A DNA stretch of 60,495 bases from a virus: positions 1 through 60,495 of the IMG/VR virus record IMGVR_UViG_3300042319_001090; one strand, written 5' to 3'. The position numbers were made by a program, and so were the translations under genes. The notes under the pieces are model-generated. The model was not told the origin of the DNA. It did no database searches and was given only the letters and a program-made list of their open reading frames with translations. This document shows, piece after piece, positions 10,878 through 33,022 of this stretch (position 1 is its first letter; the number at the start of each line of letters is the position of its first letter).

Positions 10878-12083
10878 ATGTCAACAGAAACAAAATTAAG
10901 CCATTGCTCATTCTGCGGTAATCACAAAGATGTAGTAAACAAACTCATTGTAGGGGAAGATGTAGCTATATGTAGCGATTGTATTGAGTTATGTACTCAA
11001 TTAATGCACGATGATAAAAATCTTGAAGAAGAAAAGATTGAAAAAGATTATATTAGATTTGATCCAGAAACTATCAAAGAGTTTTTAGACCAACATATCA
11101 TTGGGCAAGATAATGCAAAAATGGTACTCAGTGTAGCTATTGCTAATCATTACAAACGTATTAATTCTCCTCCTAAGGATCTTGAAATCCAAAAAGGTAA
11201 TGTATTATTAATCGGACCTACAGGATCTGGTAAAACATTACTAGCAAAGACTGTAGCAAAATATTTAGAAGTGCCCTTTATTGTTGCTGATGCTACAAGT
11301 TTAACAGAAGCTGGTTACGTAGGTGATGATGTAGAATCCATGATTAGTATGCTATTAAATGCCGCAGGTGGTGATGTTAAACTAGCAGAACGTGGTATTG
11401 TCTTTGTTGATGAGATTGACAAGATTGCCCGTAAAAGTGAAGGTTCAAGTATCACCCGTGATGTATCAGGTGAAGGTGTTCAACAAGCATTATTAAAAAT
11501 GGTTGAAGGAACTACATGTCGTATTCCAGCCGGCGGAGGACGTAAGCATCCCGGTGGCGATATGTTAGAAGTTAATACTAAAAATATCTTATTCATTGCC
11601 GGTGGTGCGTTTGTTGGATTAAAAGATATTGTTAACAATAGGTTAAACGGTACAAGTATTGGCTTTGGGGCTGATATTAAAGATGCACGTAAAGAGGGTG
11701 ATTTGTCTATGGTTAGTCCAGATGATTTAACACGATTCGGAATGATTCCTGAATTTATTGGACGATTCACTACTACAGTTAGTGTAGAGAATTTGACTAA
11801 AATTGAAATGGTTCAGGTTCTGACAAAAGTTAAAAATAACTATATTGACCAATATAAGTATTTGCTTAGTTTAGATGACATTCAGTTAGAATTTAGTGAA
11901 GATGCTATCTCACAACTAGCTGAAAACACAATGAAATTAAAGACCGGGGCACGTGGATTACATACTGAAATTGAAAAGGCCTTGATGCCACATATGTATA
12001 ACACTAAGAAATACCGTGAAAATAACATTAAAAAGATAAATATTAATCAGGAGCAAATTTTAAAGCCAAAAGCCGCAATATGA
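10878..12083 (+). CDS. clpX: ClpX, ATP-dependent unfoldase
   Basis: The hexameric AAA+ unfoldase that selects and feeds substrates to ClpP. At 401 residues it is only slightly shorter than bacterial ClpX. Cys10, Cys13, Cys32 and Cys35 form the N-terminal zinc-binding domain. Walker A is GPTGSGKT, Walker B is IVFVDEIDK, and the IGF loop used to dock ClpP is present (SIGFGADIKD). Sensor 2 is in TGARGLHTEIE. All key features look intact, so this should be an active unfoldase able to bind ClpP. ClpP and ClpS are encoded 3-7 kb downstream. Its stop overlaps the bS21 start (ATGA). Confidence 0.96.
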   Translation: MSTETKLSHCSFCGNHKDVVNKLIVGEDVAICSDCIELCTQLMHDDKNLEEEKIEKDYIRFDPETIKEFLDQHIIGQDNAKMVLSVAIANHYKRINSPPKDLEIQKGNVLLIGPTGSGKTLLAKTVAKYLEVPFIVADATSLTEAGYVGDDVESMISMLLNAAGGDVKLAERGIVFVDEIDKIARKSEGSSITRDVSGEGVQQALLKMVEGTTCRIPAGGGRKHPGGDMLEVNTKNILFIAGGAFVGLKDIVNNRLNGTSIGFGADIKDARKEGDLSMVSPDDLTRFGMIPEFIGRFTTTVSVENLTKIEMVQVLTKVKNNYIDQYKYLLSLDDIQLEFSEDAISQLAENTMKLKTGARGLHTEIEKALMPHMYNTKKYRENNIKKININQEQILKPKAAI

Positions 12084-12298
12084 TTAGAGGACGTAAAGTT
12101 TTAGTTAATGACGGAAATACAGAAAAGGCCCTACGTAAATTTAAAAAATTGATTACGGATTATGGTACTTTACAAGAAGTCCGTGACCGACAAGAATTTG
12201 TGAAACCTACTGTTAAACGTAAACTAGCTAAAAGTCAGGCCAAAAGACGTTGGGACAAACATTTGCGTGAACAAACTTTACCTAAAAAGTTGTTCTAA
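12080..12298 (+). CDS. rpsU: ribosomal protein bS21
   Basis: A small-subunit protein lying near the anti-Shine-Dalgarno end of 16S rRNA and needed for efficient initiation in E. coli. At 72 residues it is family-sized. It carries the hallmark pattern: EKALRKFKK, an EVRDRQEFVKPTVKRK segment, and a Lys/Arg-rich tail (AKSQAKRRWDKHLREQ). Phage-encoded bS21 is known from aquatic phages. It could replace host bS21 and bias ribosomes towards phage mRNAs. It is coupled to clpX by ATGA overlap. Confidence 0.9.
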   Translation: MIRGRKVLVNDGNTEKALRKFKKLITDYGTLQEVRDRQEFVKPTVKRKLAKSQAKRRWDKHLREQTLPKKLF

Positions 12299-12324
12299 AA
12301 TACTAGGATTTGTCTTAGGTATAC

Positions 12325-12330
12325 TAAATA
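12325..12330 (+). promoter_or_regulatory. T4-late-type box, 5 bases before ATG
   Basis: TAAATA in ACTAAATAGAAGTATG, directly before the HNH endonuclease gene. No good Shine-Dalgarno lies between. Confidence 0.5.
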
Positions 12331-12335
12331 GAAGT

Positions 12336-13079
12336 ATGCTTAAAATTAATTCATCATTTAATACCTACCAAAATTGTGCTAGTTGTAATAATATTATTAC
12401 AGTAAAAACATATGCTCATCCAAATAATCCTAATTACGGCAAACCAATTGTTGCCCACAAAACAAAAATAACATGTAGTCGTAAATGCCATAAAGAATGG
12501 CAAAAAACAATTTCTTGGGAAGAACGAATAGGATTAGAAAGAGCCAATCAAATTAGAGAAGAACGACGGGAACAACTGTTGTCCAATAACCCTAGTACTG
12601 ATCCTGAGGTGGCTAAAAAAATAGGTACCAGCTTGTCAGACTATCTAACAAAAAATCCAGAAGTTAGGCAAGGGAAAAATAATCCATTCTTCGGTCATTC
12701 ACACGATCCTGCCCAAATTGAAAAATGGAAAAACGATAAATCAGGTAAGTGGTCGTACTCACCTGAACAAAAAGAAAAACAAACTAAGAATACCCCAAAG
12801 AAAGAATCTCATCCAAATTGGAAAGGCGGAATTTCAAATGGCGAATATGGTCCGGAATTTAATAAAGAACTTAAAGAAAGTATTAAAAAAGATTACAGAT
12901 ATGTTTGTCAGATGTGCAATGCACCTAAGGTTAAATTAGATGTACATCATATTGATTACAATAAGAAAAACAATGCCAATAACAATCTTATTCCGTTATG
13001 TAAACATTGTCACGCAAAAACAAATTTCAAGAGAGAAGAATGGGAAACTCTTTTTAAGAATAGGTTGAATAAAAATTAA
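12336..13079 (+). CDS. HNH homing endonuclease with NUMOD3-like motifs
   Basis: A 247-residue free-standing homing endonuclease. The N-terminal part has zinc-type cysteines (CASC ... CSRKCH). The middle has a NUMOD3-like DNA-binding motif (NNPFFGHSHDPAQIEKW). The C-terminal HNH domain has CQMC, LDVHHIDYNKKN and LCKHCHAKTN, with the catalytic HH and zinc cysteines present. I prefer ATG 12336; an earlier start at 12267 lies inside bS21. It sits between bS21 and dnaK, so it was probably inserted into a conserved pair or operon. Confidence 0.88.
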   Translation: MLKINSSFNTYQNCASCNNIITVKTYAHPNNPNYGKPIVAHKTKITCSRKCHKEWQKTISWEERIGLERANQIREERREQLLSNNPSTDPEVAKKIGTSLSDYLTKNPEVRQGKNNPFFGHSHDPAQIEKWKNDKSGKWSYSPEQKEKQTKNTPKKESHPNWKGGISNGEYGPEFNKELKESIKKDYRYVCQMCNAPKVKLDVHHIDYNKKNNANNNLIPLCKHCHAKTNFKREEWETLFKNRLNKN

Positions 13080-13093
13080 AAATAAAGTATAAT
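13065..13093 (+). promoter_or_regulatory. sigma70 promoter of dnaK
   Basis: TTGAAT (13065-13070), 17-base spacer, TATAAT (13088-13093). A late box TAAATA follows at 13098-13103, so dnaK may be expressed both early and late. Confidence 0.7.
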
Positions 13094-13105
13094 ATGATAA
13101 ATAAA

Positions 13106-13146
13106 GATGTAAGTGCTGAATGAGTCAGGCTTACTAATTATACATC
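13106..13146 (+). promoter_or_regulatory. dnaK leader hairpin
   Basis: GATGTA (13106-13111) pairs with TACATC (13141-13146), with an inner CTGA/TCAG stem (13116-13119 and 13125-13128). It lies before CTTGCTTATTAAAGGAG and does not cover the ribosome site. A similar two-part hairpin precedes hsp20. Confidence 0.5.
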
Positions 13147-13168
13147 TTGCTTATTAAAGGAGAAAAAT

Positions 13169-15067
13169 ATGTCAAAGCATGTTATTGGCGTGGACTTAGG
13201 AACAACTAATTCCTGTGTAGCCATTATTGAAAACGGAATCCCCAAAATAATTGAAAATTCAGAAGGTGCTAGAACTACACCCTCAATCGTTGCCTATGCC
13301 AATGATGAGATATTAGTAGGTGCTAGTGCTAAACGTCAATCAGTTACAAATCCAAAGAATACAATCTATGCTGCCAAGCGATTAATTGGACGTAAGTTTA
13401 CAGAACAAGCTGTACAAAAAGATATTGACCTTATGCCTTATTCTATTGTCAAAGCTGATAATGGTGATGCATGGGTAGAAGTAAATGGACAAAAGCTAGC
13501 CCCACCTCAGATTAGTGCTGAGGTATTACGTAAAATGAAAAAGACTGCGGAAGACTATTTGGGTACTTCAGTTACTCAGGCAGTTATCACAGTACCAGCT
13601 TACTTCAATGACAGTCAACGTCAAGCTACTAAAGATGCAGGACGCATTGCTGGTCTAGAAGTATTACGTATTATCAACGAACCAACAGCGGCTGCTCTAG
13701 CTTATGGTGTAGATAAACAAGATAAGAAGGATCGTAAGATTGCGGTATATGACTTGGGTGGTGGTACATTTGACGTATCTATCATTGAACTAGCAGACGT
13801 TGAAGGTGAAACTCAAATTGAAGTACTATCAACAAATGGTGATACATTCTTGGGCGGTGAAGACTTTGACCAACGTATTATGGATTTCTTAGTTGATGAG
13901 TTTAAGAAAGACAATGCGGTTGATCTTAAGAAAGATATGTTAGCATTGCAACGCTTGAAAGAAGCGGCTGAGAAAGCTAAGATTGAATTGTCCAGTTCAG
14001 CACAAACAGATGTTAACTTACCATATATTACTGCTGATGCTAATGGTCCTAAACATTTGAACGTTAAGTTAAGTCGTGCTAAATTAGAATCATTAGTTGA
14101 TGAATTAATTCAACGTAGTATCAAACCATGTAAACAAGCCATGACAGATGCAGGTGTTTCAACATCTGATATTGATGAGGTTATACTTGTTGGTGGTATG
14201 ACACGTATGCCTAAAGTACAGGAAACTGTTGAAGCATTGTTTGGCAAAGCACCACGTAAAGATGTTAATCCAGATGAAGCAGTGGCAGCAGGTGCCGCAC
14301 TTCAAGGTAGCGTATTAGCCGGTGAACGTACTGATGTATTGTTATTAGATGTAACACCATTAAGTTTAGGTATTGAAACATCCGGTGGTGTATTTACTAA
14401 GTTGATTAAGAAGAATACAACTATTCCAACTAAACATAGTCAAGTGTTCAGTACAGCAGATGATAATCAACCGGCAGTAACTATTAAAGTTGCACAAGGT
14501 GAGCGTGATTTGTTTACATATAACAAGTTATTAGGTGAGTTTAATTTAGAAGGAATTCCGCCAGCAATGCGTGGAGTACCACAAATTGAAGTTACATTAG
14601 ATGTTGATGCTAATGGTATTCTTAATGTAAGTGCCAAAGACAAAGGTACAGGCAAAGAGAATAAGATTACTATTAAATCTGATTCAGGATTGACTGAACG
14701 TGAAATTCAACAGATGGTTAATGATGCTGAAGAAAATGCAGAAGCTGATGCTAAACAAGTTAAATTCATTCAAGCAAAAAATACTGGTGAATCAACATTA
14801 AACAGTTTCCGTAAAGATTATGAGAAGTACGGTGACAAAGTAACAGCAGAAGAAAAAGAAAAAGTATCAAATGCTATTGATGCATTAGAAGTTGCGTTAG
14901 CCGGAACTGAAGTTGAAGAAATTGACAACAAAGTTAAAGAACTATATGAAGCTATTGGTCCTATTACTAAACTCAAGTATGAAGAGGAACAAAAAGCCAA
15001 AGAAACATCTCAATCACAAAAGTCTGATGACAATGTGGTAGATGCAGAGGTTAAGGAAGCACCTTAA
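13169..15067 (+). CDS. dnaK: DnaK (Hsp70) chaperone
   Basis: An ATP-dependent chaperone for nascent and misfolded proteins. At 632 residues it is essentially full length. The ATPase domain has [24 protein letters not shown] and [11 protein letters not shown]. The linker [14 protein letters not shown] is intact, the substrate domain follows, and the C-terminal tail ends in VVDAEVKE, like bacterial DnaK. Nothing is truncated. A J-domain protein is encoded at 59364, Hsp20 directly downstream; no GrpE is seen in the window. It has a strong AAAGGAG and its own promoter and leader hairpin. It looks acquired from a bacterium and kept functional. Confidence 0.97.
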
Positions 15068-15077
15068 TCTAAACAAA

Positions 15078-15105
15078 ATCGGGTGCCGCATTCGGCGGGC
15101 CCGAT
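15078..15105 (+). promoter_or_regulatory. hsp20 leader hairpin
   Basis: ATCGGG (15078-15083) pairs with CCCGAT (15100-15105), with an inner GCCG/CGGC stem and a CATT loop. It is GC-rich against an AT-rich background. The bases after it (ACTTGCTTATTAGGAGAAAAA) are nearly the same as before dnaK, suggesting a shared control element. Confidence 0.5.
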
Positions 15106-15137
15106 ATCGTCATAAACTTGCTTATTAGGAGAAAAAC

Positions 15138-15587
15138 ATGACAACAAAAACATTAACCCTTCGTGCCATTGATATTCCATCAATACACAAATTCGGAATC
15201 GGATTTGATTCTATGTTAGATGAATTAATGCGTCTAACAGCTGGACAAACAAACACCAACTATCCACCTCACAATGTTATTAAAACAGGTGATGAGACTG
15301 TAACTATAGAGGTTGCTGTAGCTGGTTTCGGAGAAAATGATTTAGATATAAAATTAGATAACAATGCTTTAATTATATCCGGGTCCAAAGCACGTGAAGA
15401 AATGCTTAACTATGAATATTTACATAGAGGATTAAGCAGTAGAGATTTCACACAAACATTCCCATTAGCTGAACATGTTGAAGTAATACATGCTGAAGTA
15501 AAGAACGGAATTCTTTCTGTTTATTTAGAACGTAAAGTTCCAGAAGAAAAGAAACCAAAATCTATTGCAATTACTTATACTAAGTGA
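15138..15587 (+). CDS. small heat-shock protein Hsp20/IbpA
   Basis: A 149-residue alpha-crystallin-type holdase that binds unfolding proteins. The alpha-crystallin domain spans about residues 48-135: VIKTGDETVTIEVAVAGF, DLDIKLDNNALIISG, then LEHRGLSS-like YLHRGLSSRDF and VKNGILSVYLER. The C-terminal I-x-I motif (SIAIT) is present. It lies 70 bases after dnaK with its own AGGAG and leader hairpin. Confidence 0.93.
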   Translation: MTTKTLTLRAIDIPSIHKFGIGFDSMLDELMRLTAGQTNTNYPPHNVIKTGDETVTIEVAVAGFGENDLDIKLDNNALIISGSKAREEMLNYEYLHRGLSSRDFTQTFPLAEHVEVIHAEVKNGILSVYLERKVPEEKKPKSIAITYTK

Positions 15588-15603
15588 TATAATAAATTTT
15601 ATA

Positions 15604-15632
15604 TAAATAAGTGTGCGGGGTAACTCGCACAC
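15604..15632 (+). promoter_or_regulatory. late box and leader hairpin before clpS
   Basis: TAAATA at 15604-15609, then a 7-bp hairpin, GTGTGCG (15611-15617) with CGCACAC (15626-15632). There is no T-run, so it is a leader structure and not a terminator. Confidence 0.5.
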
Positions 15633-15649
15633 ATAACTAAACTAAAACA

Positions 15650-15958
15650 ATGTCTAAAACAGAAATTAAAACTACCATTAAACCTAACTTGAGTTTAACA
15701 GAGCCTCCGTTATTTAAAATCATTTATTTAAATGATGAGGTAACGAGCATGGAATTTGTCGTAGGTAGTTTAATTGAATATTTCAATTACACTGATGACA
15801 CAGCGGCACATATTACAGAAAATATTCATAGTCAAGGTAGTGCAGTTGTTGCTGTGTTACCATATGAAATTGCTGAACAAAAAGGTATTGAAGTAACAGT
15901 ATCGGCACGTAGTCAAGGCTATCCTCTACAAGTTAAAGTAGAGTCTGAAGCTAATTAA
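15650..15958 (+). CDS. clpS: ClpS, adaptor of Clp protease
   Basis: A 102-residue adaptor that delivers N-degron substrates to a Clp unfoldase (ClpA in E. coli). The core is recognisable: KIIYLNDEVTSMEFVV carries the Asn-Asp and Met of the N-degron pocket, and ENIHSQGSAVV carries the pocket His. An N-terminal extension of about 20 residues precedes the core. No ClpA is seen in the window, only ClpX, so it may hijack host ClpA or work differently. It converges with the next, minus-strand gene with a 4-base overlap. Confidence 0.9.
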   Translation: MSKTEIKTTIKPNLSLTEPPLFKIIYLNDEVTSMEFVVGSLIEYFNYTDDTAAHITENIHSQGSAVVAVLPYEIAEQKGIEVTVSARSQGYPLQVKVESEAN

Positions 15959-16647
15959 ACTTCTATTCTTTTAGCCCAATATGGGTTTCTTTTATAATAA
16001 CTGTTGTTGATATAGTTAATACCATCTAACACAATATCAACACTTTTATTATATTGACCATACACCCAATGAGTTACTTTACCCTCTGAATCTTTAATCA
16101 AGGATAATTTTAACGGTGGTATGGAATATATGTCATCTGGTTCTTCTCCGAATAATAATTCATGTCCGGGAGCAGAATGACTAACAATTAAGATTTTTGT
16201 TACATCTAAATGAAGCTGTAGTTTTTCAATAGAATTACCTAAATAACCTATATCTTCATATCGTTCATTTTCTATGTGTACAGGACTTAGTAAAGGATAT
16301 GCATATTCATTATGAAACCAACCATTGGTTCCTACAATAGCAATACCATCTATGATAACTACATGGTTATGTAAATATGCTACATTGCGTATACTTTTAG
16401 ATATAGTAACCAGTTCATTAGTACGTACAGTTATATTAGCTACACCTTCATACTCTAATGATCCTGCGGTGTAGAACACGCCTTGATAAAAATGTGATAA
16501 ATGTAATAGGATTTGATGTATAGTACGTAAATCATTACTGATGTTACCTGCTATAATACAATAGAGACTTGTTGCTTTTCCTTCCCAATCAAATTGTTCG
16601 GTCGGGCCAAGATTTAGGTCACTTATTACATCAAATCCTATTTTCAT
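15955..16647 (-). CDS. degenerate calcineurin-like phosphoesterase
   Basis: A 230-residue protein with the metallophosphoesterase layout but altered metal ligands. The usual D-x-H is DLN (VISDLNLG), the GD motif is IAGNISN, the GNHE motif is AGSLEYEG, and the last GH-x-H is GQYN. Only a SHSAPG segment keeps its His. The intact paralogue at 22625 shows how each motif should look. I infer loss of catalysis and a binding or regulatory role. It is transcribed leftwards. Confidence 0.7.
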   Translation of the reverse strand: MKIGFDVISDLNLGPTEQFDWEGKATSLYCIIAGNISNDLRTIHQILLHLSHFYQGVFYTAGSLEYEGVANITVRTNELVTISKSIRNVAYLHNHVVIIDGIAIVGTNGWFHNEYAYPLLSPVHIENERYEDIGYLGNSIEKLQLHLDVTKILIVSHSAPGHELLFGEEPDDIYSIPPLKLSLIKDSEGKVTHWVYGQYNKSVDIVLDGINYINNSYYKRNPYWAKRIEV

Positions 16648-16658
16648 TAATCGGGTAG

Positions 16659-16973
16659 TTACTTAGCTACTGTAACTTTTGGCTTGGCTGTTTTTGCAGG
16701 TGCTTTAGCTTTAGCCGGGGCTTTAGCGGCTGTTTTTGCCGGCGCCTTTGGCTTTGCTGGGGCTCTAGCTTTTTTAACAGGTGCTACAATTGATGAAGCT
16801 TCTGTTCCGGCAGGTAGTGCTTCTACGTTAGGTGCCTCAACCTTAACTGGCTCTGCTACCGGAGCAGATGCTTCTACCTTATAAGGTGCCGCTACTTCTG
16901 TTGTTTTATCATTACGCATGAAAAAGAACCAAGCTATACCAGCCAAAATAACCAATCCTATAATAATTTCCAT
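16659..16973 (-). CDS. membrane-anchored protein with Lys-Ala-Pro repeats
   Basis: A 104-residue protein: an N-terminal membrane helix (MEIIIGLVILAGIAWFFFM), a Glu/Val/Ala-rich linker, and a C-terminal basic tail of repeated KAPAK/AKAPA units, as in histone-H1-like and AlgP-type bacterial proteins. The tail would bind DNA or other polyanions while anchored at the membrane. It lies 11 bases upstream of the degenerate phosphoesterase, probably in one operon. The ribosome site is AGGAG. Confidence 0.7.
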   Translation of the reverse strand: MEIIIGLVILAGIAWFFFMRNDKTTEVAAPYKVEASAPVAEPVKVEAPNVEALPAGTEASSIVAPVKKARAPAKPKAPAKTAAKAPAKAKAPAKTAKPKVTVAK

Positions 16974-17035
16974 TTAATTTCTCCTAAACATATATTTACT
17001 CTAGGACGTTAAATTGGTTATTTTTTCCTAATATA

Positions 17036-17068
17036 TTGCTAGATTGCAGGGTCCTGCTACAATAAATA
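17036..17068 (+). promoter_or_regulatory. overlapping sigma70 and late promoter
   Basis: TTGCTA (17036-17041), 16-base spacer, TACAAT (17058-17063) overlaps the late box TAAATA (17063-17068). ATG follows after four bases with no Shine-Dalgarno. Confidence 0.5.
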
Positions 17069-17072
17069 CAGT

Positions 17073-17564
17073 ATGACAAAAAAATCCGAACTTTCCAAAT
17101 TAATGCGTGAACCGCTACCAAGTATCGGTTACCAAAAACGTCTAAGCTACCGAACGAATAACGCTGAAGTAGTAGAACTATATAAACTAATCAATCAGGC
17201 ATGCTTTAACAATAAGTTGAACATGCCTGAAATTGAGGTTACAGCCCGTTGTAGAAAATACTGGGGTATGTGTTTTGGCAGTTTTGAGATTGTTAAATAT
17301 CGCAAAACCTATTGTAAAATCCGTCTCATGGACAAGTGGTTCTGTAAACAGTGGTTAATCACTACTTTAGCACATGAAATGGTGCATCAATATCAATGGG
17401 ATATTGACGGAGCTAAACGTGAACGTGAAGGTAAAGATAGAATAATGAGTCATGGTCCTAGCTTCTATGCTCATAGAGAAAGACTAGCTAAACATGGGAT
17501 TTCATTAAAAGTAGGCCATGGTCAAAAGCGTTGGCTTAAACATCAAAGCTTTGCTAAATGTTAA
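17073..17564 (+). CDS. SprT-like zinc metallopeptidase
   Basis: A 163-residue protein with the zinc-binding HEMVHQYQWD (HExxH) near residue 103 and a downstream HGPSFYAHRERLAKHG that supplies a third ligand. SprT/Spartan-type proteins cleave DNA-protein crosslinks in eukaryotes; the role of phage members is unsettled. It lacks a C-terminal zinc-ribbon. It begins near a late-type box without a leader and converges with the next minus-strand gene with a 4-base overlap. Confidence 0.85.
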   Translation: MTKKSELSKLMREPLPSIGYQKRLSYRTNNAEVVELYKLINQACFNNKLNMPEIEVTARCRKYWGMCFGSFEIVKYRKTYCKIRLMDKWFCKQWLITTLAHEMVHQYQWDIDGAKREREGKDRIMSHGPSFYAHRERLAKHGISLKVGHGQKRWLKHQSFAKC

Positions 17565-18718: not shown

Positions 18719-18760
18719 GTATAATATCTCAAATAATATGCTAATTATAGCACCATTAAG

Positions 18761-24611: not shown

Positions 24612-24613
24612 TA

Positions 24614-24844: not shown

Positions 24845-25122
24845 ACGAAGATACAAGAGAAATTCTTTTAATCTTACAGGAAGAATGTGCTGAAGTTACA
24901 CAGGCTGTAAGCAAGTGTTTTAGATTTGGACCAGATCAAATAAAACCAAATAAACCAATGACTAATATCCAAATGCTTGAAGAAGAATTGGGTGATCTAT
25001 TGGCTATGGTTGAGTTGATTACAGATAACAATGTGGGTATTACAGTTCAAGGTTTAGAGACGGCCAAAAAGAATAAATTTAAGAAATTAAAGAAGTGGTC
25101 TAACTTAACTATTAATAAATAA
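24841..25122 (+). CDS. MazG-like nucleotide pyrophosphohydrolase
   Basis: A 93-residue, all-helical NTP pyrophosphatase of the MazG superfamily. It has the metal motif QEECAEVTQAVSK (E-E-x-x-E) and LEEELGDLLAMVE (E-x-x-D). Phage MazG proteins hydrolyse dNTPs or affect host nucleotide alarmones; the substrate is not settled. It is in the same operon as dCMP deaminase, consistent with nucleotide management. Confidence 0.85.
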   Translation: MNEDTREILLILQEECAEVTQAVSKCFRFGPDQIKPNKPMTNIQMLEEELGDLLAMVELITDNNVGITVQGLETAKKNKFKKLKKWSNLTINK

Positions 25123-25126
25123 CATT

Positions 25127-25453
25127 ATGACATTACTTGATATCATTCTTATTTTAGCCTTAGGTTGGGTTATGGGCGAGTTCTATACCATGTATAAATT
25201 ACGCAAAAACATTCGTTCATATCTTATCATACAAGAAGAAACTAGACCCACTGTTTTTAAATTAGAGACAGAACTAGTGGACAATACAATATTGTTATAT
25301 GACCGTGACACAAATGATTTTATTTGTCAAGGAAATTCACTAGAGCAACTAGCACAACTAAGTAGAGAATACAAGAAAATTGAATATGCTACAGTAAAGC
25401 ACGGAGATTATTTTGTTGCATTTATTGAAGGCAAGGTAACTGAAAAAGTATGA
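25127..25453 (+). CDS. small membrane-anchored protein
   Basis: A 108-residue protein with one N-terminal helix (IILILALGWVMGEFY) and a mixed cytoplasmic domain ending in YFVAFIEGKVTEKV. Comparable anchored proteins occur in T4-like phages without known function. It overlaps the next gene by ATGA. Confidence 0.7.
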   Translation: MTLLDIILILALGWVMGEFYTMYKLRKNIRSYLIIQEETRPTVFKLETELVDNTILLYDRDTNDFICQGNSLEQLAQLSREYKKIEYATVKHGDYFVAFIEGKVTEKV

Positions 25454-25986: not shown

Positions 25987-25989
25987 TTG

Positions 25990-26726: not shown

Positions 26727-26901
26727 AATATCAATCGGCTACGGAGAATTAAAACCTGTCATTGAATGGTGTCAGAGAAACTGCGCCAATGATTGGGGAT
26801 ATAATTGCCTAGAATTTGCAGGCGGCAGTGATGGTGGATTATATGATTTCTATTTTGAAACAGAATCCGATTACATAAACTTTATACTTTGGAAAAAATG
26901 A
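26698..26901 (+). CDS. small conserved phage protein
   Basis: A 67-residue acidic, aromatic-rich protein (GYGELKPVIEWCQRNCAND...YDFYFETESDYINFILWKK). It begins inside the deaminase 3' end; AAGGTGG precedes the ATG. It overlaps the next gene by ATGA. The function is unknown. Confidence 0.62.
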   Translation: MSPDTQYKTEISIGYGELKPVIEWCQRNCANDWGYNCLEFAGGSDGGLYDFYFETESDYINFILWKK

Positions 26902-27167
26902 AATACTATACTTTTTACCGTGAAAACAATAACTTCACAGATATACTAACAGACAACAACATTAAGAAAGTGGTTGATATGAAAATATCATGGCATAGAC
27001 ATTTAATGATTGGGATGCAAGCAACTACTAATAGCGGCACGTTTAGCTATATTACATTGAAGTATGGTGATGAGATGATACCTAGTTTAACAAAAGACTA
27101 TAGTCCAGTACCCGGGGTTGATTATGTACCTAAGAAAGATATCACTAAGTTTGAAAATAAAGATTAA
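26898..27167 (+). CDS. small hypothetical protein
   Basis: An 89-residue protein, MKYYTFYRENNNFTDILTDN, alpha/beta. The ATG at 26898 overlaps the previous stop (ATGA). It ends the rightward operon and overlaps the end of the convergent peptidase gene by 4 bases. Confidence 0.65.
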   Translation: MKYYTFYRENNNFTDILTDNNIKKVVDMKISWHRHLMIGMQATTNSGTFSYITLKYGDEMIPSLTKDYSPVPGVDYVPKKDITKFENKD

Positions 27168-27895
27168 TAAAGCATAGATAGCATCTTAGCTTCTGGGATA
27201 CGAGTTTTAGTATTCTTTGAACCCAACAGGACTACGGTCCTGATTCCATTTACAGTATTAATCATCATAACAATACATCCACCTGATTTAGTAATCCATC
27301 CTGTCTTGCTTACTATAAACGAATTGTTTGGTCCTACTAGTGTATTAGTATTTCTAAACTCTATATTTTTCTTCTTATTGATACTCCAACGTACTGCGTC
27401 CATATTACTAGCTTCTACTATCAATGGATACTTGCTGGCTGCGAATACAAGTTTAATTAAATCTTGTGCTGTACTAACGTTTGTAGCTAACAATCCAGTA
27501 GGGTCGGTAAAGGTACTGTTAATCATTTGTAATGACGTTGCTTTAGTGTTCATTGCACTGATACAGTTATCATATCCTCCCGGATAGTAATCGCATAATA
27601 GTTTGGCAGCGGAATTATCTGATTTAACGATTGCCAAATCAATAAGTATTTCTCTAGTAAGTTGTTTGTTGTAGAGTTTTTTTGGAATGATTTCTGTAAG
27701 TGATTGACCACTATCTAGCACAACCATTGCAGTCATTAGTTTAGTGATACTAGCTATGCTACGTATTTCGGACATATTAGAAGCTTCAAATATTCTACCA
27801 TTACTATCAGCGACTATCCAAGCTTGTGCAGTTAATGGTGTAGCGTATGCAGATGAAGCTGTTAGTGCCAGTACTGTAATTAATTTTTTAATCAT
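27164..27895 (-). CDS. S11-family DD-peptidase (PBP7-like), exported
   Basis: A 243-residue precursor. The signal peptide is MIKKLITVLALTASSAYATP. Active-site motifs of low-molecular-mass penicillin-binding proteins are SITKL (S-x-x-K), SDN in VKSDNSAAKLL, and KTG in VSKTGWITKSG. These enzymes trim or cleave peptidoglycan peptides in the periplasm. The catalytic domain alone is present, as in PBP7/PbpG endopeptidases. In a phage it could weaken or remodel the wall; use in lysis is inference. It overlaps the upstream exported protein by ATGA. Confidence 0.88.
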   Translation of the reverse strand: MIKKLITVLALTASSAYATPLTAQAWIVADSNGRIFEASNMSEIRSIASITKLMTAMVVLDSGQSLTEIIPKKLYNKQLTREILIDLAIVKSDNSAAKLLCDYYPGGYDNCISAMNTKATSLQMINSTFTDPTGLLATNVSTAQDLIKLVFAASKYPLIVEASNMDAVRWSINKKKNIEFRNTNTLVGPNNSFIVSKTGWITKSGGCIVMMINTVNGIRTVVLLGSKNTKTRIPEAKMLSMLY

Positions 27896-28209
27896 ATTGA
27901 TGTTCCTGTCTTATAATTAATTAATTTAATATCAGTACCCATTCCAACGATACAGCTTATATCTTTTGAAGTAGCAACGATTGTCCAATTCTTATCAGTG
28001 GGGTTCATCCAAACACTGAGAGTTGATTTAGCTATATCTGTTACCTTGCCTGTTAGTAGAGGCAGTTCTTTATATTTTTCTCTAAGATTTTTAAATAGGT
28101 CTGTTGTGTTGTAGCAGGGTAGTTCTGCTTCTATGGTTTCTTTTAGTTCTTGTGAATAGGAGCAGGTTGATATTCCTAAAGTTAGTAGTATTAGATAAAG
28201 TGATTTCAA
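27892..28209 (-). CDS. small exported protein
   Basis: A 105-residue precursor with a signal peptide (about 18 residues ending TCSYS-QE). The mature part has LSVWMNPTDKNWTIVATS and DISCIVGMGTD, as in exported proteins of T4-like phages from aquatic bacteria. The start is TTG at 28209, supported by GGAGAA seven bases upstream. It is co-transcribed with the DD-peptidase. Confidence 0.65.
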   Translation of the reverse strand: MKSLYLILLTLGISTCSYSQELKETIEAELPCYNTTDLFKNLREKYKELPLLTGKVTDIAKSTLSVWMNPTDKNWTIVATSKDISCIVGMGTDIKLINYKTGTSI

Positions 28210-28271
28210 TATATTCTCCTATTCGTTATAGTATATCATACAACTAGAGAATATACTAATCAGATTTACCC

Positions 28272-29261
28272 TTAGAAGGTGATTGAACCACTAGTGGTCC
28301 AGGTATATACTCTATATCCGCCTGCTACAGTTATTGTTGGACTACCAGTTGTACTTGTTGCCGCGGGATAACTATCTGCATAACGAATTATTACTATACC
28401 GGAACCACCTGGGCCGCCATAAGAAGTTGGTCCACCGTTGCCGCCCCCTCCACCCCCTCCACCACCAGAGTTTGCTCCGCCTGCACCCCCACCGCCAGAA
28501 GAAACATTGGCTGCACTGCCACCGTTTGAACCACCAGTACCGGCAGTATGTGATCCAGAACTATTTAAGTAAAGACCACCGCCACCGCCACCGCCAGCAC
28601 CACCATTACCGCCAGAATCGCTACCTGAACTATCTGCACCGCCGGCGCCTCCACCGCCTCCGGAATAGTAAAGAGAAGTTCCGGAAATACTGTATTGACG
28701 ACCAATACCGCCAGCACCGCCTGCCCCTAACACGGATGTTGTTGATCCATTTGTTCCTACTGCACCTGCACCCCCGCCACCACCTGACGCAAACGCTCCG
28801 GTTTGATTGATTCCGTTACCTCCGGCAAACCCATACCCAGTTGCCCCGCCGGTATTCCCTTGTGTAGCCGCAGCACCTGCTCTCACTCCAATTGGCAAAT
28901 ACGCACCGCCGCCTCCAGAACCACCGGAAAAAGCACTAATTACTGTGCCGCAGCCACCACCACCACCATTAGATGTAATAGTATCAAGGACGCTATTGCT
29001 TCCAGACACACCATTGGTGACCTCGGCGCTATTCCCACCAGGGCCGCCGGCGCCTACTGTTACCGTATATGGAGTGCCTCCAGTAACCGATCTAGCGGCT
29101 TGATAACTTAATCCACCAGCGCCACCACCGCCAGCAATAAACACACCACCGCCACCGCCACCTGCAACTACAAGACATTCTACTGTGGGTGTAACTGCTG
29201 GATCATCACTTCCAGTAATACTAAGTCCACTAGTAAAAACTATTCCACTACCTATTTGCAT
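28272..29261 (-). CDS. glycine-rich tail-fibre/adhesin protein
   Basis: A 329-residue protein. Residues 30-280 are dominated by Gly-rich, PPII-like repeats (GGGGGAGG). The C-terminal GSGIVIIRYADSYPAA and VAGGYRVYTWTTSGSITF close the glycine-rich domain. Such domains occur in phage receptor-binding tips and bacterial adhesins. AAAGGA precedes the ATG. It is a clear paralogue of the gene just upstream, sharing both ends. Confidence 0.8.
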   Translation of the reverse strand: MQIGSGIVFTSGLSITGSDDPAVTPTVECLVVAGGGGGGVFIAGGGGAGGLSYQAARSVTGGTPYTVTVGAGGPGGNSAEVTNGVSGSNSVLDTITSNGGGGGCGTVISAFSGGSGGGGAYLPIGVRAGAAATQGNTGGATGYGFAGGNGINQTGAFASGGGGGAGAVGTNGSTTSVLGAGGAGGIGRQYSISGTSLYYSGGGGGAGGADSSGSDSGGNGGAGGGGGGGLYLNSSGSHTAGTGGSNGGSAANVSSGGGGAGGANSGGGGGGGGGNGGPTSYGGPGGSGIVIIRYADSYPAATSTTGSPTITVAGGYRVYTWTTSGSITF

Positions 29262-29271
29262 TGTATTTCCT

Positions 29272-30171
29272 TTAGAACGTTATTGAACCAGAACTAGTCC
29301 ATTGATATACTCTATATCCACCCGCAACAGTTATTGTTGGAGATCCGGTTGAACTTGTTGCGGCTGCGTATGTGTCTGCATAACGAATAATTACGATTCC
29401 GGATCCTCCAGAACCAACCGTTGTGCCTTGTGAAGCACCACCACCGCCACCGCCTGTGTTGGTGGTGCCGTTTGTAGGGTTATTGCTTGGGTATGCACCG
29501 TTACCACCTCCACCTGAACCGCCTGAACCGCCTGTACCGGGGCCAACATTAAGGCCACCGCCACCACCGCCGGCGTATGTAACCGATGAACCAGAAATAG
29601 ATGAAATAGTGCCCGCGCCTCCGTTACCCCCCGCATTAGGGCTGAGAGTTGCTGTCCCTCCAACAGCAGACGCACCACCACCACCACCGCCTGCTCCATT
29701 AACACCAGAAACATGAGCACTAGTACCACCATTATTTCCTTGCGATGGAGTTGTTGCTGGAGTATTACCTGATCCGCCCGGAGCAGTTAATGGACCTATC
29801 CAAATGCCGCCACCGCCACCAGAACCACCATTTCCGCCAGTCGCATTTGTATAAGTTGATCCATCATATCTACCGCCACGACCACCACCATTAGAAATGA
29901 TATTGTCAAATACAGAATTAGTCCCTGCAGTATAACTTCCACCACCACCACCGACGGTAACTGTGATTGGCGTGCCAGCTGTTACTGAATAACCAGAGTC
30001 TGTTCTAAATCCGCCTGCGCCGCCGCCGCCACCTGAACCTGATCCAACTGCATCATTTCCTCCGCCACCTCCACCAGCGACTACTAGATATTCTACCGTG
30101 GGAGTAACTGCAGGAGCACCGCCACCTAAAACTGTCATTCCGCCTGAAATTGTTAATCCACCAAAATTCAT
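29272..30171 (-). CDS. glycine-rich tail-fibre/adhesin protein, paralogue
   Basis: A 299-residue protein with the same layout: NFGGLTISGGMTVLGGGAPA, VEYLVVAGGGGGG, a Gly-rich middle, then GSGIVIIRYADTY and VAGGYRVYQWTSSGSITF. The pair arose by tandem duplication, with different Gly-rich middles. They may offer alternative receptor tips. A late box lies at 30196-30201. Confidence 0.8.
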   Translation of the reverse strand: MNFGGLTISGGMTVLGGGAPAVTPTVEYLVVAGGGGGGNDAVGSGSGGGGGAGGFRTDSGYSVTAGTPITVTVGGGGGSYTAGTNSVFDNIISNGGGRGGRYDGSTYTNATGGNGGSGGGGGIWIGPLTAPGGSGNTPATTPSQGNNGGTSAHVSGVNGAGGGGGGASAVGGTATLSPNAGGNGGAGTISSISGSSVTYAGGGGGGLNVGPGTGGSGGSGGGGNGAYPSNNPTNGTTNTGGGGGGASQGTTVGSGGSGIVIIRYADTYAAATSSTGSPTITVAGGYRVYQWTSSGSITF

Positions 30172-30195
30172 AATGTTAAACCTATAATATAGTAG

Positions 30196-30201
30196 TATTT
30201 A
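30196..30201 (-). promoter_or_regulatory. T4-late-type box, minus strand
   Basis: GCTAAATACT on the minus strand, 24 bases before the ATG of the glycine-rich fibre gene, with a normal ribosome site in between. Consistent with late structural expression. Confidence 0.55.
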
Positions 30202-30210
30202 GCAAAAAAT

Positions 30211-30384
30211 CTACTTATTATTTTTTACAAACCAATAATGTTTTTGTAACTCTCTAAGTACTTCACTTTCTGGTTGCTTAAACTGTCTTGCTGCCATCTC
30301 AACAAAGTCTAACCAACGAAAATCATAATTTTCATTTCCCTGACACCATTGTTGGTACATTAATTGTAGTTCTCTACTAGTCAT
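30211..30384 (-). CDS. small hypothetical protein
   Basis: A 57-residue, aromatic-rich helical protein (MTSRELQLMYQQWCQGNENY...). It starts by ATGA overlap with the upstream small gene. Its position before the fibre genes suggests late expression. The function is unknown. Confidence 0.6.
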   Translation of the reverse strand: MTSRELQLMYQQWCQGNENYDFRWLDFVEMAARQFKQPESEVLRELQKHYWFVKNNK

Positions 30385-30536
30385 TTCTTCTTTTTTTCTT
30401 GTTCTGATAACTTAGCTTTTACACCAGTAACTTCAAGTTTTATCTCTTTTAATATCTTTTCTGCTATAGGGCTTGAATGATGTGCATGTAATTTTGGGGG
30501 TGTTTTTGTTCTGGGTTTATGTTTGAACCAACTCAT
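30381..30536 (-). CDS. small basic conserved phage protein
   Basis: A 51-residue protein starting MSWFKHKPRTKTPPKLHAHH, with SSPIAEKILKEIK. This basic, Pro/His-containing start is familiar from T4-like aquatic phages. AAGGAG precedes ATG 30536. The function is unknown. Confidence 0.65.
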   Translation of the reverse strand: MSWFKHKPRTKTPPKLHAHHSSPIAEKILKEIKLEVTGVKAKLSEQEKKKK

Positions 30537-30622
30537 CGGCGTTCTCCTTCTGATTGGGTATAAATATATATTTAATTGATTAAACTCAATAAAATAGCAT
30601 AAGTCATAACAAAGGAAATAAC

Positions 30623-31159
30623 ATGACAGAAGTAAAAACATTATCACGTAGTGAACGTGAAGCACAAATTAAAGATAGAGCGGGCTGGGTAATCACCGTC
30701 ATCGCACTACTATTAGCAATAACAACATACATGGCTAGTGGATTCAGTAGTAAAATACTAACCAATACAATCAAAGCAAACGATACTTGGAACTTCTATC
30801 AAGCTAAAAGTATCAAGCAAAGTATTGCTGAAGGACAATTAGAAGCTACCACCGATACAAAACGTAAAGAAATATTACAAGCTAAGATTGACCGTTATGA
30901 AAGTGATCCAGGTAAGGGTGAAGGTAAGAAAGAGTTAATGGCTAAAGCATTACAGATTGAAGCAGAACGTGATGAAGCTAAGAAACATACACCATGGTTG
31001 ACGTTTGCCGCAATGGCATTTCAGTTAGCAATTGTGTTACTATCCGCTAGTATTTTAGCGGTAGATAAACGTATGTTTTGGGGAAGTATTGGTGTAAGTA
31101 TTTTTGGAACAATGTTATTAACCCAAGGCATTTGGCTTGTCATACCATTGGTGATATAA
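30623..31159 (+). CDS. DUF4337-like membrane protein
   Basis: A 178-residue protein. It has one N-terminal helix (GWVITVIALLLAITTYMA), a cytoplasmic-type coiled segment with AKSIKQSIAEGQLEA, and two C-terminal helices (WLTFAAMAFQLAIVLLSA and a second). The arrangement matches the DUF4337 family, common in Proteobacteria and some phages, with unknown function. AAGGAA precedes the ATG. Confidence 0.78.
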   Translation: MTEVKTLSRSEREAQIKDRAGWVITVIALLLAITTYMASGFSSKILTNTIKANDTWNFYQAKSIKQSIAEGQLEATTDTKRKEILQAKIDRYESDPGKGEGKKELMAKALQIEAERDEAKKHTPWLTFAAMAFQLAIVLLSASILAVDKRMFWGSIGVSIFGTMLLTQGIWLVIPLVI

Positions 31160-31166
31160 TAGCTAA

Positions 31167-31721
31167 ATGAAACTTAAGGAATTAATGGAAGATACAAACA
31201 AAAAGATGCCACATCTATACTTAGATATGGATGGGGTACAAGCTGATTTCTTTGGGGCATGGGCCAGAAAACATAATGTTGGTAATTACAAAGAGATTCC
31301 TGATACTGAAACATCAATAAATGAGTTAGCCTCAAGTAGCCCTGAAGAAGTGTATAGGTTTTTTAGAGAACTAAAACCTCTTCAAGGCGGAGGTAAAGTT
31401 GTACAATGGTTAAATCAACATAATATCCCATACAGTGTACTAAGTGCTCCATTACGTGGACCATATGCTAGTGCTAGTGTAGAAGCCAAAAAAGATTGGT
31501 TAGATGAACATAATCCAAATGCTACACAAAATGCTATCTTTACACAACATAAACACAAATACGCATTGAGTAATGGTGAACCAAATGTCTTAGTAGATGA
31601 TTATGGTAAGTATTTAAATCTGTGGAGTAATGCCGGTGGTATTGCTGTGAAGCATGAAGATGAGAACACTGACCATACTATTAAGGAACTAGAAAAAATC
31701 TATTCCCCCTACTTGTCCTGA
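31167..31721 (+). CDS. HAD-type 5'-nucleotidase-like with short leader
   Basis: A 184-residue protein. After a 15-residue leader (MKLKELMEDTNKKMP) comes HLYLDMDGVQADFF, the D-x-D nucleophile motif of HAD phosphatases. SVLSAPL, an AKKDW lysine and LVDDYGKYL supply the other HAD motifs. It resembles 5'(3')-deoxyribonucleotidases. The leader, with L-M-E, resembles a T4 capsid-targeting sequence, so it may be packaged; alternatively it acts in nucleotide salvage. A TATAAT lies 6 bases before the ATG. Confidence 0.72.
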   Translation: MKLKELMEDTNKKMPHLYLDMDGVQADFFGAWARKHNVGNYKEIPDTETSINELASSSPEEVYRFFRELKPLQGGGKVVQWLNQHNIPYSVLSAPLRGPYASASVEAKKDWLDEHNPNATQNAIFTQHKHKYALSNGEPNVLVDDYGKYLNLWSNAGGIAVKHEDENTDHTIKELEKIYSPYLS

Positions 31722-31727
31722 TAAGTA
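31722..31727 (+). promoter_or_regulatory. variant late box (TAAGTA), 4 bases before ATG
   Basis: GATAAGTATAGTATG has the same spacing as the TAAATA boxes, with one base changed. No Shine-Dalgarno is present. Confidence 0.35.
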
Positions 31728-31731
31728 TAGT

Positions 31732-31917
31732 ATGACTAAGCCTGGCAAAAATTTAATACGTTATGAAGTAATTACCCATGAAGATCCAGAGACAGGTGAT
31801 TTAATGTTACCTATACCACAGAAATTATTAGATGAATTGGGTTGGCGTGAAGGTGATGAGATTGAATTTGCTATAGATGAAAAGGGCAAGTACATCTTAA
31901 AACGAGCAAACAAATGA
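31732..31917 (+). CDS. AbrB/MazE-like small DNA-binding protein
   Basis: A 61-residue protein with the swapped-hairpin pattern LMLPIPQKLLDELGWREGDE then IEFAIDEKGKYILKR, as in SpoVT/AbrB and MazE domains. Such proteins bind DNA as dimers, or are antitoxins. No toxin gene is adjacent, so a phage transcription regulator is more likely. It overlaps the next gene by ATGA. Confidence 0.72.
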   Translation: MTKPGKNLIRYEVITHEDPETGDLMLPIPQKLLDELGWREGDEIEFAIDEKGKYILKRANK

Positions 31918-32351
31918 GTTATCCAACTTACACTACCACTATGATAGGTGATTCTTTAAATGCGGGTACCCCCAGTACAGTTACTATACCCAATAATACT
32001 TCAAGTGGAAGTTTATATTGGGGATTAAACGGGACGAGTGCTAACCCTGGACAAGTATTAACTTCAACTACAACTGGTACTAATTGGGGTAATATATCAA
32101 TATCAGAACCTAACATAAAAGGTGCTACCCTTAAGGTTAACGGTGATGCTGATTTTGAAGGTGAAGTAACTATTAAGGGCAAAAGCCTTACTGGTATGAT
32201 TGAAAAGATTGAAGAACGATTAGCTATCCTTCACCCAAATCCTGAACTAGAGGATAAATGGGATGAATTAAAAGAATTGAGTAAACGCTATAAAGAACTA
32301 GAGCAAGAACTCATAGAAAAAGAGAAAGTTTGGGCAATCTTAAAGAAGTAA
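31914..32351 (+). CDS. conserved virion-associated protein (probable)
   Basis: A 145-residue protein. The N-terminal half is fibre-like (TIPNNTSSGSLYWGLNGTS, LKVNGDADFEGEVTIKG). The C-terminal part is a coiled coil with AILHPNPELEDKWDELKELS, a segment I recognise from T4-like phages of cyanobacteria and other aquatic hosts. It probably forms a small fibre or neck-associated structure. Confidence 0.72.
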   Translation: MSYPTYTTTMIGDSLNAGTPSTVTIPNNTSSGSLYWGLNGTSANPGQVLTSTTTGTNWGNISISEPNIKGATLKVNGDADFEGEVTIKGKSLTGMIEKIEERLAILHPNPELEDKWDELKELSKRYKELEQELIEKEKVWAILKK

Positions 32352-32354
32352 GAT

Positions 32355-32383
32355 TTGACAAATAATCCATATTTTGCTATAAT
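32355..32383 (+). promoter_or_regulatory. sigma70 promoter
   Basis: TTGACA (32355-32360), 17-base spacer, TATAAT (32378-32383). It drives the gene at 32416 and IF-1, so IF-1 can be made before late transcription. Confidence 0.88.
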
Positions 32384-32415
32384 AGAAACTGTTTAATAAC
32401 TATGACCCATACATT

Positions 32416-32808
32416 ATGACTATGCACTTAGCACATCCCGCACTATCTATAGGCGGTAAACGTAAAGGCAAGATTAAGTTTCGTAATAGCGCAGAGGCAC
32501 AAAAAGCCCGTCAACTTGATGCCGACTGGAAAGAATTGCAGAAAAAATGGGAGGTAGATGCTGATGACAAAAAGCGCAAACGTGCATTATCGGCTGAACC
32601 ATTACAATATACTTTGTCCGCACCAGCCGGACGTGAGACAAAACGTATTGCTAGTTTAGATACTGGTCATTCAGGAGCTGTTCGCACCAAAGATATTCCA
32701 CAATATACAGGTACTAATATTGTTGGGATTTCTACATTACATAAAAGTAATGCGGTTCCAGTGTTTAGTAGAGAAGAAGCGATTGATATATCAAAAATGA
32801 GAAGGTAG
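32416..32808 (+). CDS. conserved phage protein, unknown function
   Basis: A 130-residue, basic protein ([20 protein letters not shown], then [16 protein letters not shown]). The start pattern, with [16 protein letters not shown], is familiar from T4-like phages. No function is known to me. It lies one base before IF-1 in the same unit. Confidence 0.72.
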
Positions 32809-32809
32809 A

Positions 32810-33022
32810 ATGGCAAAAGAAGAAGGTTTACGAATGGATGGTACGGTAACAGATGTGTTACCTAACGCCACGTTTCGTGTTAAAGTAAATAACACAAATG
32901 TAATAGGTTATATCTCTGGCAAGATGCGCCAGCATGATATTAAAGTTCTACTCGGAGATATAGTAGAATTAGAATTTAGTCCATACGACTTATCAAAAGG
33001 CCGAATCGTGCGCCGACGTTAA
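32810..33022 (+). CDS. infA: translation initiation factor IF-1
   Basis: A 70-residue S1/OB-fold protein. It matches bacterial IF-1 along its length: [46 protein letters not shown] and [15 protein letters not shown]-1 binds the ribosomal A site and helps fix the initiator tRNA. It is rarely seen in phages; with bS21 and an initiator-type tRNA here, it points to phage control of initiation. It is expressed from a consensus sigma70 promoter. Confidence 0.92.

Follow-up and report, generated by a model that had tools for sequence, protein, structure and literature searches.

bS21, IF-1 and an initiator-type tRNA in a fragment of a distantly T4-like phage, beside a separate class of predicted leaderless genes

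Introduction

The closest described systems are phages that carry translation parts of their own. A survey of huge phages reported IF1, IF3, S21, transfer RNAs (tRNAs) and other translation genes and proposed that host initiation is redirected (PMC7162821); the words 'initiator', 'fMet' and 'leaderless' are absent from its main text, and promoter classes are left untreated in its available text. For the bS21 phages of Bacteroidetes, with genomes of 293-331 kilobases (kb) and 5-25 tRNAs, metatranscriptomes place bS21 expression late, as we predict for the phage studied here; the introduction of the same paper recalls that bS21 contacts the Shine-Dalgarno helix and that its loss disturbs initiation, and the terms 'initiation factor', 'IF1' and 'IF-1' do not occur in its available text (PMC9723584). 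The bS21 of phage HTVC008M is reported to enter the ribosomes of E. coli (PMC9976891, PMC9723584). Here we analyze the IMG/VR virus record IMGVR_UViG_3300042319_001090 (60,495 bases, 36.8% GC; hereafter the window), a piece of a large phage distantly related to T4, with genes for bS21, IF-1 and an initiator-type tRNA. A first-pass annotation of this DNA had regarded the three as a translation-initiation kit with which the phage re-programs start-site selection, possibly in favor of late mRNAs of its own that are leaderless or have a weak Shine-Dalgarno sequence.

We find that the three genes are real, that they lie far apart behind predicted promoters of different classes, and that the phage has, in addition, a set of genes whose predicted promoters are fused to their start codons. 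The best reading of the sequence, and in our judgement a probable one, is that the phage would replace parts of the host translation apparatus in stages, and that the leaderless-type genes form a separate class beside this supply.

Results

The bS21 gene (rpsU-like; positions 12080-12298, plus strand) codes for 72 residues and matches PF01165 with 57.5 bits against a cut-off of 27 (profile positions 2-53 of 55); its start codon overlaps the stop codon of clpX. The IF-1 gene (infA-like; 32810-33022, plus strand; 70 residues) matches PF01176 with 70.9 bits against a cut-off of 30.2 (profile positions 3-64 of 64). Both proteins also match solved structures, IF-1 with E values of about 1e-19 and with residues 1-69 aligned to the best chains. 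The 60 distinct bS21 proteins that we aligned, the one of the window included, are 71-73 residues long, and the median ratio of nonsynonymous to synonymous substitution rates (dN/dS) against the window is 0.126 for bS21 (17 usable of 59 pairs) and 0.146 for IF-1 (17 usable of 56 pairs), the remaining pairs falling outside the dS limits. As judged from these ratios, both genes are under purifying selection. The GkMR and YDl.kGRI stretches of IF-1, whose residues we take to serve 30S binding and initiation, are conserved across 57 distinct IF-1 proteins, which would fit such an activity.

A pattern search of IMG/VR gave 104 IF-1 loci and 370 bS21 loci, 80 of each being kept (160 in total, at 58-100% identity), and a further 35 records with IF-1 were found in a phage collection, some of them looking like bacterial fragments. 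Phage IF-1 is thus less rare than the first-pass annotation had it, and it is in print, as is phage bS21, which had correctly been called documented. Thirty related contigs were picked from the IMG/VR relatives, IF-1 having led to 25 and bS21 to 5 of them, and by construction each has one of the two genes; bS21 is present in 26, IF-1 in 29 and both in 25, and the absences may reflect the fragmentary state of contigs. In most contigs with both genes these are 7-26 kb apart on the same strand, G015 being the exception. Among nine further contigs reached through the terminase, which are pieces of 62-264 kb, bS21 was found in one (G031, where it lies 7 kb from the contig end) and IF-1 in none. An origin of bS21 and IF-1 in bacterial contamination or faulty assembly has a negligible probability: the bacterial look of some phage-collection matches to IF-1 would fit it, and it is contradicted by the regular spacing on one strand, by the phage promoters described below and by the range of identity among the relatives. 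Another of the contigs, G003 (IMGVR_UViG_3300027749_002876; 524,565 bases), carries each of the two genes twice, in opposite orientations, and is either a chimera of two related phages or the product of a duplication. When genome contigs were scanned with bS21, the 26 loci obtained, from Bacteriovoracaceae, Bacteroidia, Margulisiibacteriota and others, had 36-47% identity and were judged unusable for assigning a host.

The closest large relative is G001 (348,701 bases), which in the longer alignment blocks has about 78-92% identity to the window. When 39 T4 proteins were searched against it, 13 gave matches (gp4, gp17, gp18, gp20, gp21, gp23, gp41, gp43, gp44, gp46, gp47, UvsX and UvsW), hence our placing of the group as distantly T4-like; at least 600 terminase relatives of this group are present in IMG/VR. 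By tblastn, T4 gp55 and gp45 had no match in G001 or the window, and G001 encodes a 317-residue protein with a Sigma70 region 4.

The third gene, an initiator-type tRNA with anticodon CAU (55071-55145, minus strand), scores 57.1 bits with the Rfam tRNA model. C1:A72 is the sole pair flagged as non-standard, and the D arm reads GAGA...ACUC, so that A11:U24 is present as well. An A11:U24 pair in the D stem is a mark of initiator tRNAs. The three consecutive G:C pairs of the anticodon stem are incomplete: two are found and A29:U41 replaces the third, and because of this missing pair we speak of an initiator-type tRNA rather than of a proven initiator. Position 55, in the T loop, is G. The minimum-energy fold of the tRNA alone gives no cloverleaf, and the Rfam model does align it as one. 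A second CAU tRNA of the window (57270-57347) has no C1:A72 mark. A tRNA of 84-100% identity occurs in 7 of the 30 contigs, one match covering positions 25-75 only; initiator-type tRNAs with C at position 1 and A72 at the end are found in G001, G002, G007 and G009; and the phage collection has 34 records with DNA similar to that of the window tRNA, a number of them looking like pieces of bacterial genomes. By Pfam and Rfam scores, conservation and the co-occurrence of the two protein genes in 25 of 30 contigs, the three genes that the first-pass annotation named have stood up, the tRNA on the minus strand.

The unusual features of this tRNA raise the question of whether the three phage parts are counter-defence spares, able to withstand host toxins or nucleases by which initiator tRNA is cleaved or initiation is blocked. 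The deviations in the anticodon stem and T loop of the tRNA could then be resistance changes, and G007 shares them with the window at 85% identity; a possible role of phage bS21 in evading defence is also raised in the available text of PMC9723584. However, the T loop is normal in the divergent initiator-type tRNAs found in G002 and G009, and that the changed positions are cut sites is supposition. We regard this explanation as unlikely. In the tRNA of G007 one anticodon-stem G:C pair is kept, beside A29:U41 and U31:G39.

The initiator-type tRNA belongs to an array of 16 tRNA genes near the end of the contig (54059-60022, minus strand). In G001, 25 tRNAs cover 19 amino acids and are accompanied by a transfer-messenger RNA (tmRNA); G002 has 35 tRNAs, G007 33, G009 46 and G010 18, the counts for G002 and G009 including one CUA tRNA each and that for G009 also one unresolved tRNA. 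Since these five large relatives carry 18-46 tRNAs, and G001, G002, G009 and G031 a tmRNA, the three translation factors apparently belong to a broader supply of such parts. The tmRNA genes lie at 38319-38707 (minus strand) in G001, 83288-83696 in G002, 361980-362523 in G009 and 101488-101860 in G031; all are marked by ARAGORN with an asterisk, which we take to mean that they are permuted. In G002 and G009 an amber-type tRNA (anticodon CUA) adjoins the tmRNA.

Two promoter classes were distinguished, an early type with TTGACA-N17-TATAAT boxes and a late type with a T4-like TAAATA box. The predicted T4-type late promoter of bS21 (TAAATA at 12037-12042, plus strand) lies inside the 3' end of clpX and would give a leader of about 32 nucleotides (nt). 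A TAAATA box within 60 nt upstream of bS21 was found at all 59 loci with distinct proteins (2.7 expected), 47 times at 37 nt and always within 31-40 nt, against 2 of 55 loci for IF-1 (2.0 expected). The codons of clpX at this box are ATA or CTA followed by AAT in 57 of 57 readable loci: isoleucine is encoded by ATA in 37 of 37 cases, against 63 of the 463 isoleucine codons in the preceding 300 nt, and asparagine by AAT in 57 of 57, against 204 of 377, while CTA makes up 120 of the 641 leucine codons of the same 300 nt. This bias indicates a constraint at the DNA level and marks bS21 as a predicted late gene. IF-1, in turn, lies downstream of a perfect early-type promoter (32355-32383, plus strand), with the open reading frame (ORF) starting at 32416 also behind it; in the 1 kb before IF-1, sigma70-type promoters with at most one mismatch occur at 32 of 52 loci (0.08 expected per kb), and none was found in the kilobase before bS21 at 57 loci. 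A second perfect early-type promoter (55395-55423, minus strand) precedes tRNA-Leu, tRNA-Ala and the initiator tRNA. In G001 there are 52 early-type sites with at most one mismatch; 36 have an ORF nearby, the ATG of which is mostly 26-37 nt past TATAAT, leaving leaders of about 20-30 nt, and in the examples from the window the leader contains a Shine-Dalgarno motif.

The three genes do not form a single operon, which is ruled out by their separate promoters and by distance, bS21 and IF-1 being 20.5 kb apart and the initiator tRNA another 22 kb past IF-1, outside the region that the first-pass annotation delimited. Nor was their treatment as one kit borne out: early promoters are predicted for IF-1 and the tRNA and a late one for bS21 (59 of 59 loci), with a correspondingly different timing, and the initiator tRNA is one of a large set.

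An early promoter cassette about 70 nt long, in which TTGACAATAAATGG is followed by TATAAT or a near variant of it and finally by a Shine-Dalgarno motif, recurs before small ORFs of the window at 1035, 1434, 19982, 20307, 20657, 20983, 21402 and 21740, and on the minus strand at 43740 and 44404. Around bS21 lies a proteostasis set made up of ClpX with a zinc finger (10878-12083), DnaK (13169-15067; 858.6 bits) and ClpS (15650-15958; 80.1 bits), to which a J-domain protein (59364-59960) belongs. Directly after IF-1 (33056-33933) come an Fe/Mn superoxide dismutase and a gene for iron-sulphur cluster biosynthesis.

The late box is also found directly before start codons. With k as the number of nucleotides between the promoter box and the start codon (TAAATA-N4-ATG has k=4), TAAATA stands at k=4-5 before 34 ORFs in G001, 33 in G002, 30 in G007, 26 in G009 and 30 in G010, with backgrounds of 1.1-1.7, and before 17 in G031; a simple rule (longest ORF or half-frame) served to call the ORFs. 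In G001, with 376 called ORFs of at least 60 residues, this leaderless-type class makes up about one tenth of the genes. The start codons at k=4-5 are ATG in 164 of 170 cases (GTG 3, TTG 2, CTG 1), and the non-start control ATA occurs 15 times without a peak. According to a review of leaderless mRNAs, as far as its available text goes, AUG is their sole start, IF2 is required and IF3 is an antagonist, while IF-1 and bS21 are not named for leaderless initiation (PMC4611024); the dominance of ATG at k=4-5 matches the AUG-only rule. Moreover, a Shine-Dalgarno core precedes only 10 of 153 ORFs at k=4-5 versus 116 of 175 in a second hump at k=17-23.

In T4 the late promoter is described as an 8-bp TATA box, with A at -13 in nine sites and an unconserved -35 region (PMC2988020, available text). 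A box reaching -13 therefore ends near -6, five bases before +1. The k=4-5 class is consistent with such promoters: boxes are TATAAATA-like, and a -35 element with at most two mismatches is found in 26 of 153, with none perfect. TATAAT boxes, for their part, peak at k=6 (39 ATG starts), where the -35 box has at most two mismatches in 25 of 39 (12 perfect) versus 14 of 59 at control spacings. The TATAAT hexamer occupies -12 to -7. With TAAATA at 4-5 and TATAAT at 6, each promoter type is thus spaced such that transcription would start on the A of AUG.

The arrangement is conserved: TAAATA is kept at k=3-7 in 50 of 65 orthologue comparisons (33-84% protein identity), and before the terminase the box stands at 4-7 nt (mostly 5 or 6) in 43 of 45 distinct upstream regions, one with a Shine-Dalgarno core. 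Orthologous genes were counted in several genomes, and pooled P values are therefore non-independent. In G001 a sigma-factor-like protein, one virion protein and a fatty acid desaturase are among the members of the class at k=4-5; the spacing is k=6 for the terminase and a second virion protein, and k=7 for a radical SAM protein. A T at -1 is strongly represented in G001 (25 of 34 versus 95 of 281), and was rejected as proof of the start site, being too weak when the genomes are pooled.

In a different view, TAAATA beside ATG would be no promoter and would act as an A/U-rich aid to ribosome binding on mRNAs with leaders. Although this would suit the k=4-5 sites, most of which are without Shine-Dalgarno motifs, the same box is also found at k=17-23 with a Shine-Dalgarno core intervening (116 of 175), the box 37 nt before bS21 runs against the codon preference of clpX, and the peak for TATAAT is at k=6, not 4-5, and comes with a -35 box. 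This view is very improbable.

In the window, 11 ORFs of at least 50 residues have TAAATA 3-7 nt before ATG, eight at five and three at four. Counted over every ATG of the window, TAAATA-N5-ATG occurs 9 times against 2.29 expected (0 of 100 shuffles reached this number), and TAAATA-N4-ATG 5 times against 2.27, a number reached by 10 of 100 shuffles and thus not beyond chance; the leaderless claim therefore rests on ORF-filtered counts and on the relatives. The sites with N4 are at 7609-7621 (ORF 7619-9160, 513 residues; kept in G001, G002 and G009), which is the first in the plus-strand ORF run leading to clpX and bS21, at 17063-17075 (ORF 17073-17564; kept in G001, G002 and G007) and at 55878-55890 (ORF 55888-56433), all on the plus strand. 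Those with N5 on the plus strand are at 12325-12338 (HNH endonuclease, 12336-13079), 25116-25129 (ORF 25127-25453; kept in G001, G002, G009 and G010), 33045-33058 (superoxide dismutase, 33056-33610; kept in G001, G007 and G010, not in G009), 48799-48812 (ORF 48810-49715; kept in G001 and G002, none seen in G009), 50301-50314 (ORF 50312-51217; kept in G001), 55440-55453 (HNH endonuclease, 55451-55729; kept in G001) and 59353-59366 (the J-domain protein; kept in G001 and G007, none seen in G002, G009 and G010), and one is on the minus strand at 57965-57978 (endonuclease, 57353-57967). The mRNAs of these ORFs are predicted to be leaderless, as is that of ORF 31167-31721, where a sigma70-type promoter with two mismatches (31132-31169, plus strand) has its TATAAT 6 nt before ATG; a like arrangement is found at G001:224619 (185-residue ORF). 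Recognizable products of the class in the window are thus three endonucleases, the superoxide dismutase and the J-domain protein. Endonuclease genes often have a TAAATA-ATG start, in the window (12336-13079, 55451-55729 and 57353-57967) and, judged by eye from the first residues, in G001 (101625, 193374, 39314 and 178766), as if a portable late start travelled with them.

The phage is not leaderless throughout, a possibility ruled out by the Shine-Dalgarno cores that precede 39-48% of the ORFs of the window and of G001, where shuffled controls give 10-12%. Since such cores are so common, and no IF3 was found in the 31 records searched (nor was peptide deformylase), the proposal that the factors exist for leaderless mRNAs is unsupported.

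The TAAATA-ATG peak was compared across 17 records. No significant excess at k=4-5 was found in T4 (100 kb), P-SSM2 (200 kb; the nearest, with 3 versus 0.9, P 0.06), RaK2 (200 kb), Atu_ph07 (400 kb), Phosso (400 kb) or the megaphages LR756508 (200 kb), LR756502 (200 kb), LR756501 and LR745206 (150 kb each), while LR756511 (400 kb) has one (18 versus 2.3). Three T4 matches at k=5, before ORFs of at least 50 residues, lie inside annotated genes and were taken as chance. By profile search, IF-1 is present in Phosso, LR756511 and LR756508, and bS21 in the same three (in LR756511 with 27.1 bits against the cut-off of 27) and in Atu_ph07, LR756502, LR756501 and LR745206. Phosso and LR756508 thus have bS21 and IF-1 without a leaderless peak, and the four further bS21 phages are also without it; hence the presence of bS21 and IF-1 does not entail the class.

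These comparisons bear on a sharpened form of the first-pass proposal, in which bS21, IF-1 and the initiator tRNA jointly turn host ribosomes toward AUG-first leaderless phage mRNAs. The class is present in the window phage, the eight records that have it (the window, G001, G002, G007, G009, G010, G031 and LR756511) include bS21 in 8 of 8 and IF-1 in 7 of 8, and it is absent from seven phages that lack IF-1 (Atu_ph07, P-SSM2, RaK2, T4, LR756502, LR756501 and LR745206); six of the eight were reached through IF-1, however, which makes this converse link less clear. Against it stand Phosso and LR756508, which hold both proteins and not the class, the different promoter classes of bS21 and IF-1, the contact of bS21 with the Shine-Dalgarno helix, which as described in PMC9723584 gives no push toward leaderless mRNAs, the lack of IF3 in the 31 records, and G010, which has the class and no detected initiator tRNA. 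We consider this joint action quite unlikely. The same low probability applies to its fullest version, according to which late and some early promoters fused to start codons form a second, leaderless expression channel, to which the initiator tRNA, IF-1 and bS21 tune the ribosome over host messages; such an AUG-first channel would include the terminase, structural, sigma-factor and other mRNAs. Thus, of what had been suggested on leaderless late mRNAs, the existence of genes with the expected anatomy held, and the idea that the factors exist to favor them found no support, given Phosso and LR756508.

Discussion

The staged replacement of host translation parts, beside a separate leaderless class, remains the probable account. 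The phage encodes intact bS21, IF-1 and an initiator-type tRNA, which would serve as spare parts for host ribosomes. IF-1 and the tRNAs, made early, would sustain initiation and elongation while host supplies fail, and bS21 would replace the host copy late, at the time when virion proteins are needed. The timing within infection, the entry into ribosomes and the need for phage parts are presumed here from the identity, conservation and promoter class of the genes. The mRNAs of the ORFs with k=4-5 would begin at AUG and be translated as leaderless, their 5' ends being predicted from the promoter register; it is from the anatomy and conservation of the class that we infer both the ends and the mode of translation.

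Several observations weigh against this account. A shortfall of these parts in the host is presumed, and the tRNA of the window, without one of the G:C pairs, may be a weak initiator. No initiator tRNA was found among the 18 tRNAs of G010, and G031 shows no tRNAs at all, although both contigs may be fragments. The promoter classes are predictions, and readthrough could blur the division into early and late: a TATAAATA box at 30559-30566, before ORF 30623, could feed IF-1 late, and a sigma70-type box with two mismatches at 9161-9189, before ORF 9171, could feed bS21 early. As to the leaderless class, five GTG and two TTG starts are also found with TATAAT at k=6, the box is missing from 15 of the 65 orthologue comparisons, in some of them because of paralogues or badly called starts, and T at -1, which a transcript starting on the AUG would lead one to expect, is only weakly enriched in the pooled set (83 of 153 versus 74 of 175, p=0.035). 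Finally, LR756511 has IF-1, bS21 and the leaderless peak, so that some association is possible.

On their own, the three translation genes add to a theme already documented, and more can be learned from the fusion of promoter and start. From this fusion follows a prediction, genome-wide and open to test, of leaderless genes, the terminase included, in an abundant T4-like group. It also keeps apart two matters that had been treated as one: the reason for which phages carry initiation factors and the kind of mRNA that these factors serve. No description of a leaderless late class in T4-like phages was recognized in full-text literature searches, most subscription journals lying outside their scope, and no paper on this phage clade was recognized in the literature search. 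A paper on moraphages deals with DnaK-bearing aquatic jumbo phages, 'S21' and 'initiation factor' being absent from its available text (PMC12619734); a word search of two reviews of jumbo phages (PMC13282480, PMC7824862) gave neither 'S21' nor 'IF1'. That phage transcripts are often leaderless is said in passing in the paper on AR9 (PMC5312081, available text).

Among the known systems, the jumbo phages of Sinorhizobium come close in gene content: AP-J-162 is described, in the available text, as having S21, IF-3, L7/L12, deformylase and ClpX (PMC11242549), and Phosso (PV764938) has IF-1 and bS21 as here, but not the TAAATA-N4/5-ATG class in 400 kb. In the bS21 phages of PMC9723584, as far as they are described in its text, the neighbors of bS21 are structural genes, whereas here the neighbor is clpX, with the late promoter inside it. 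The window group also differs from T4, in which (over 100 kb) the late box is mostly 21-29 nt from ATG and a single ORF has it at k=4-5. In turn, the leaderless mRNAs of bacteria and phages, as reviewed in the available text of PMC4611024, have a 5'-terminal AUG and no Shine-Dalgarno sequence, like those predicted for the class found here.

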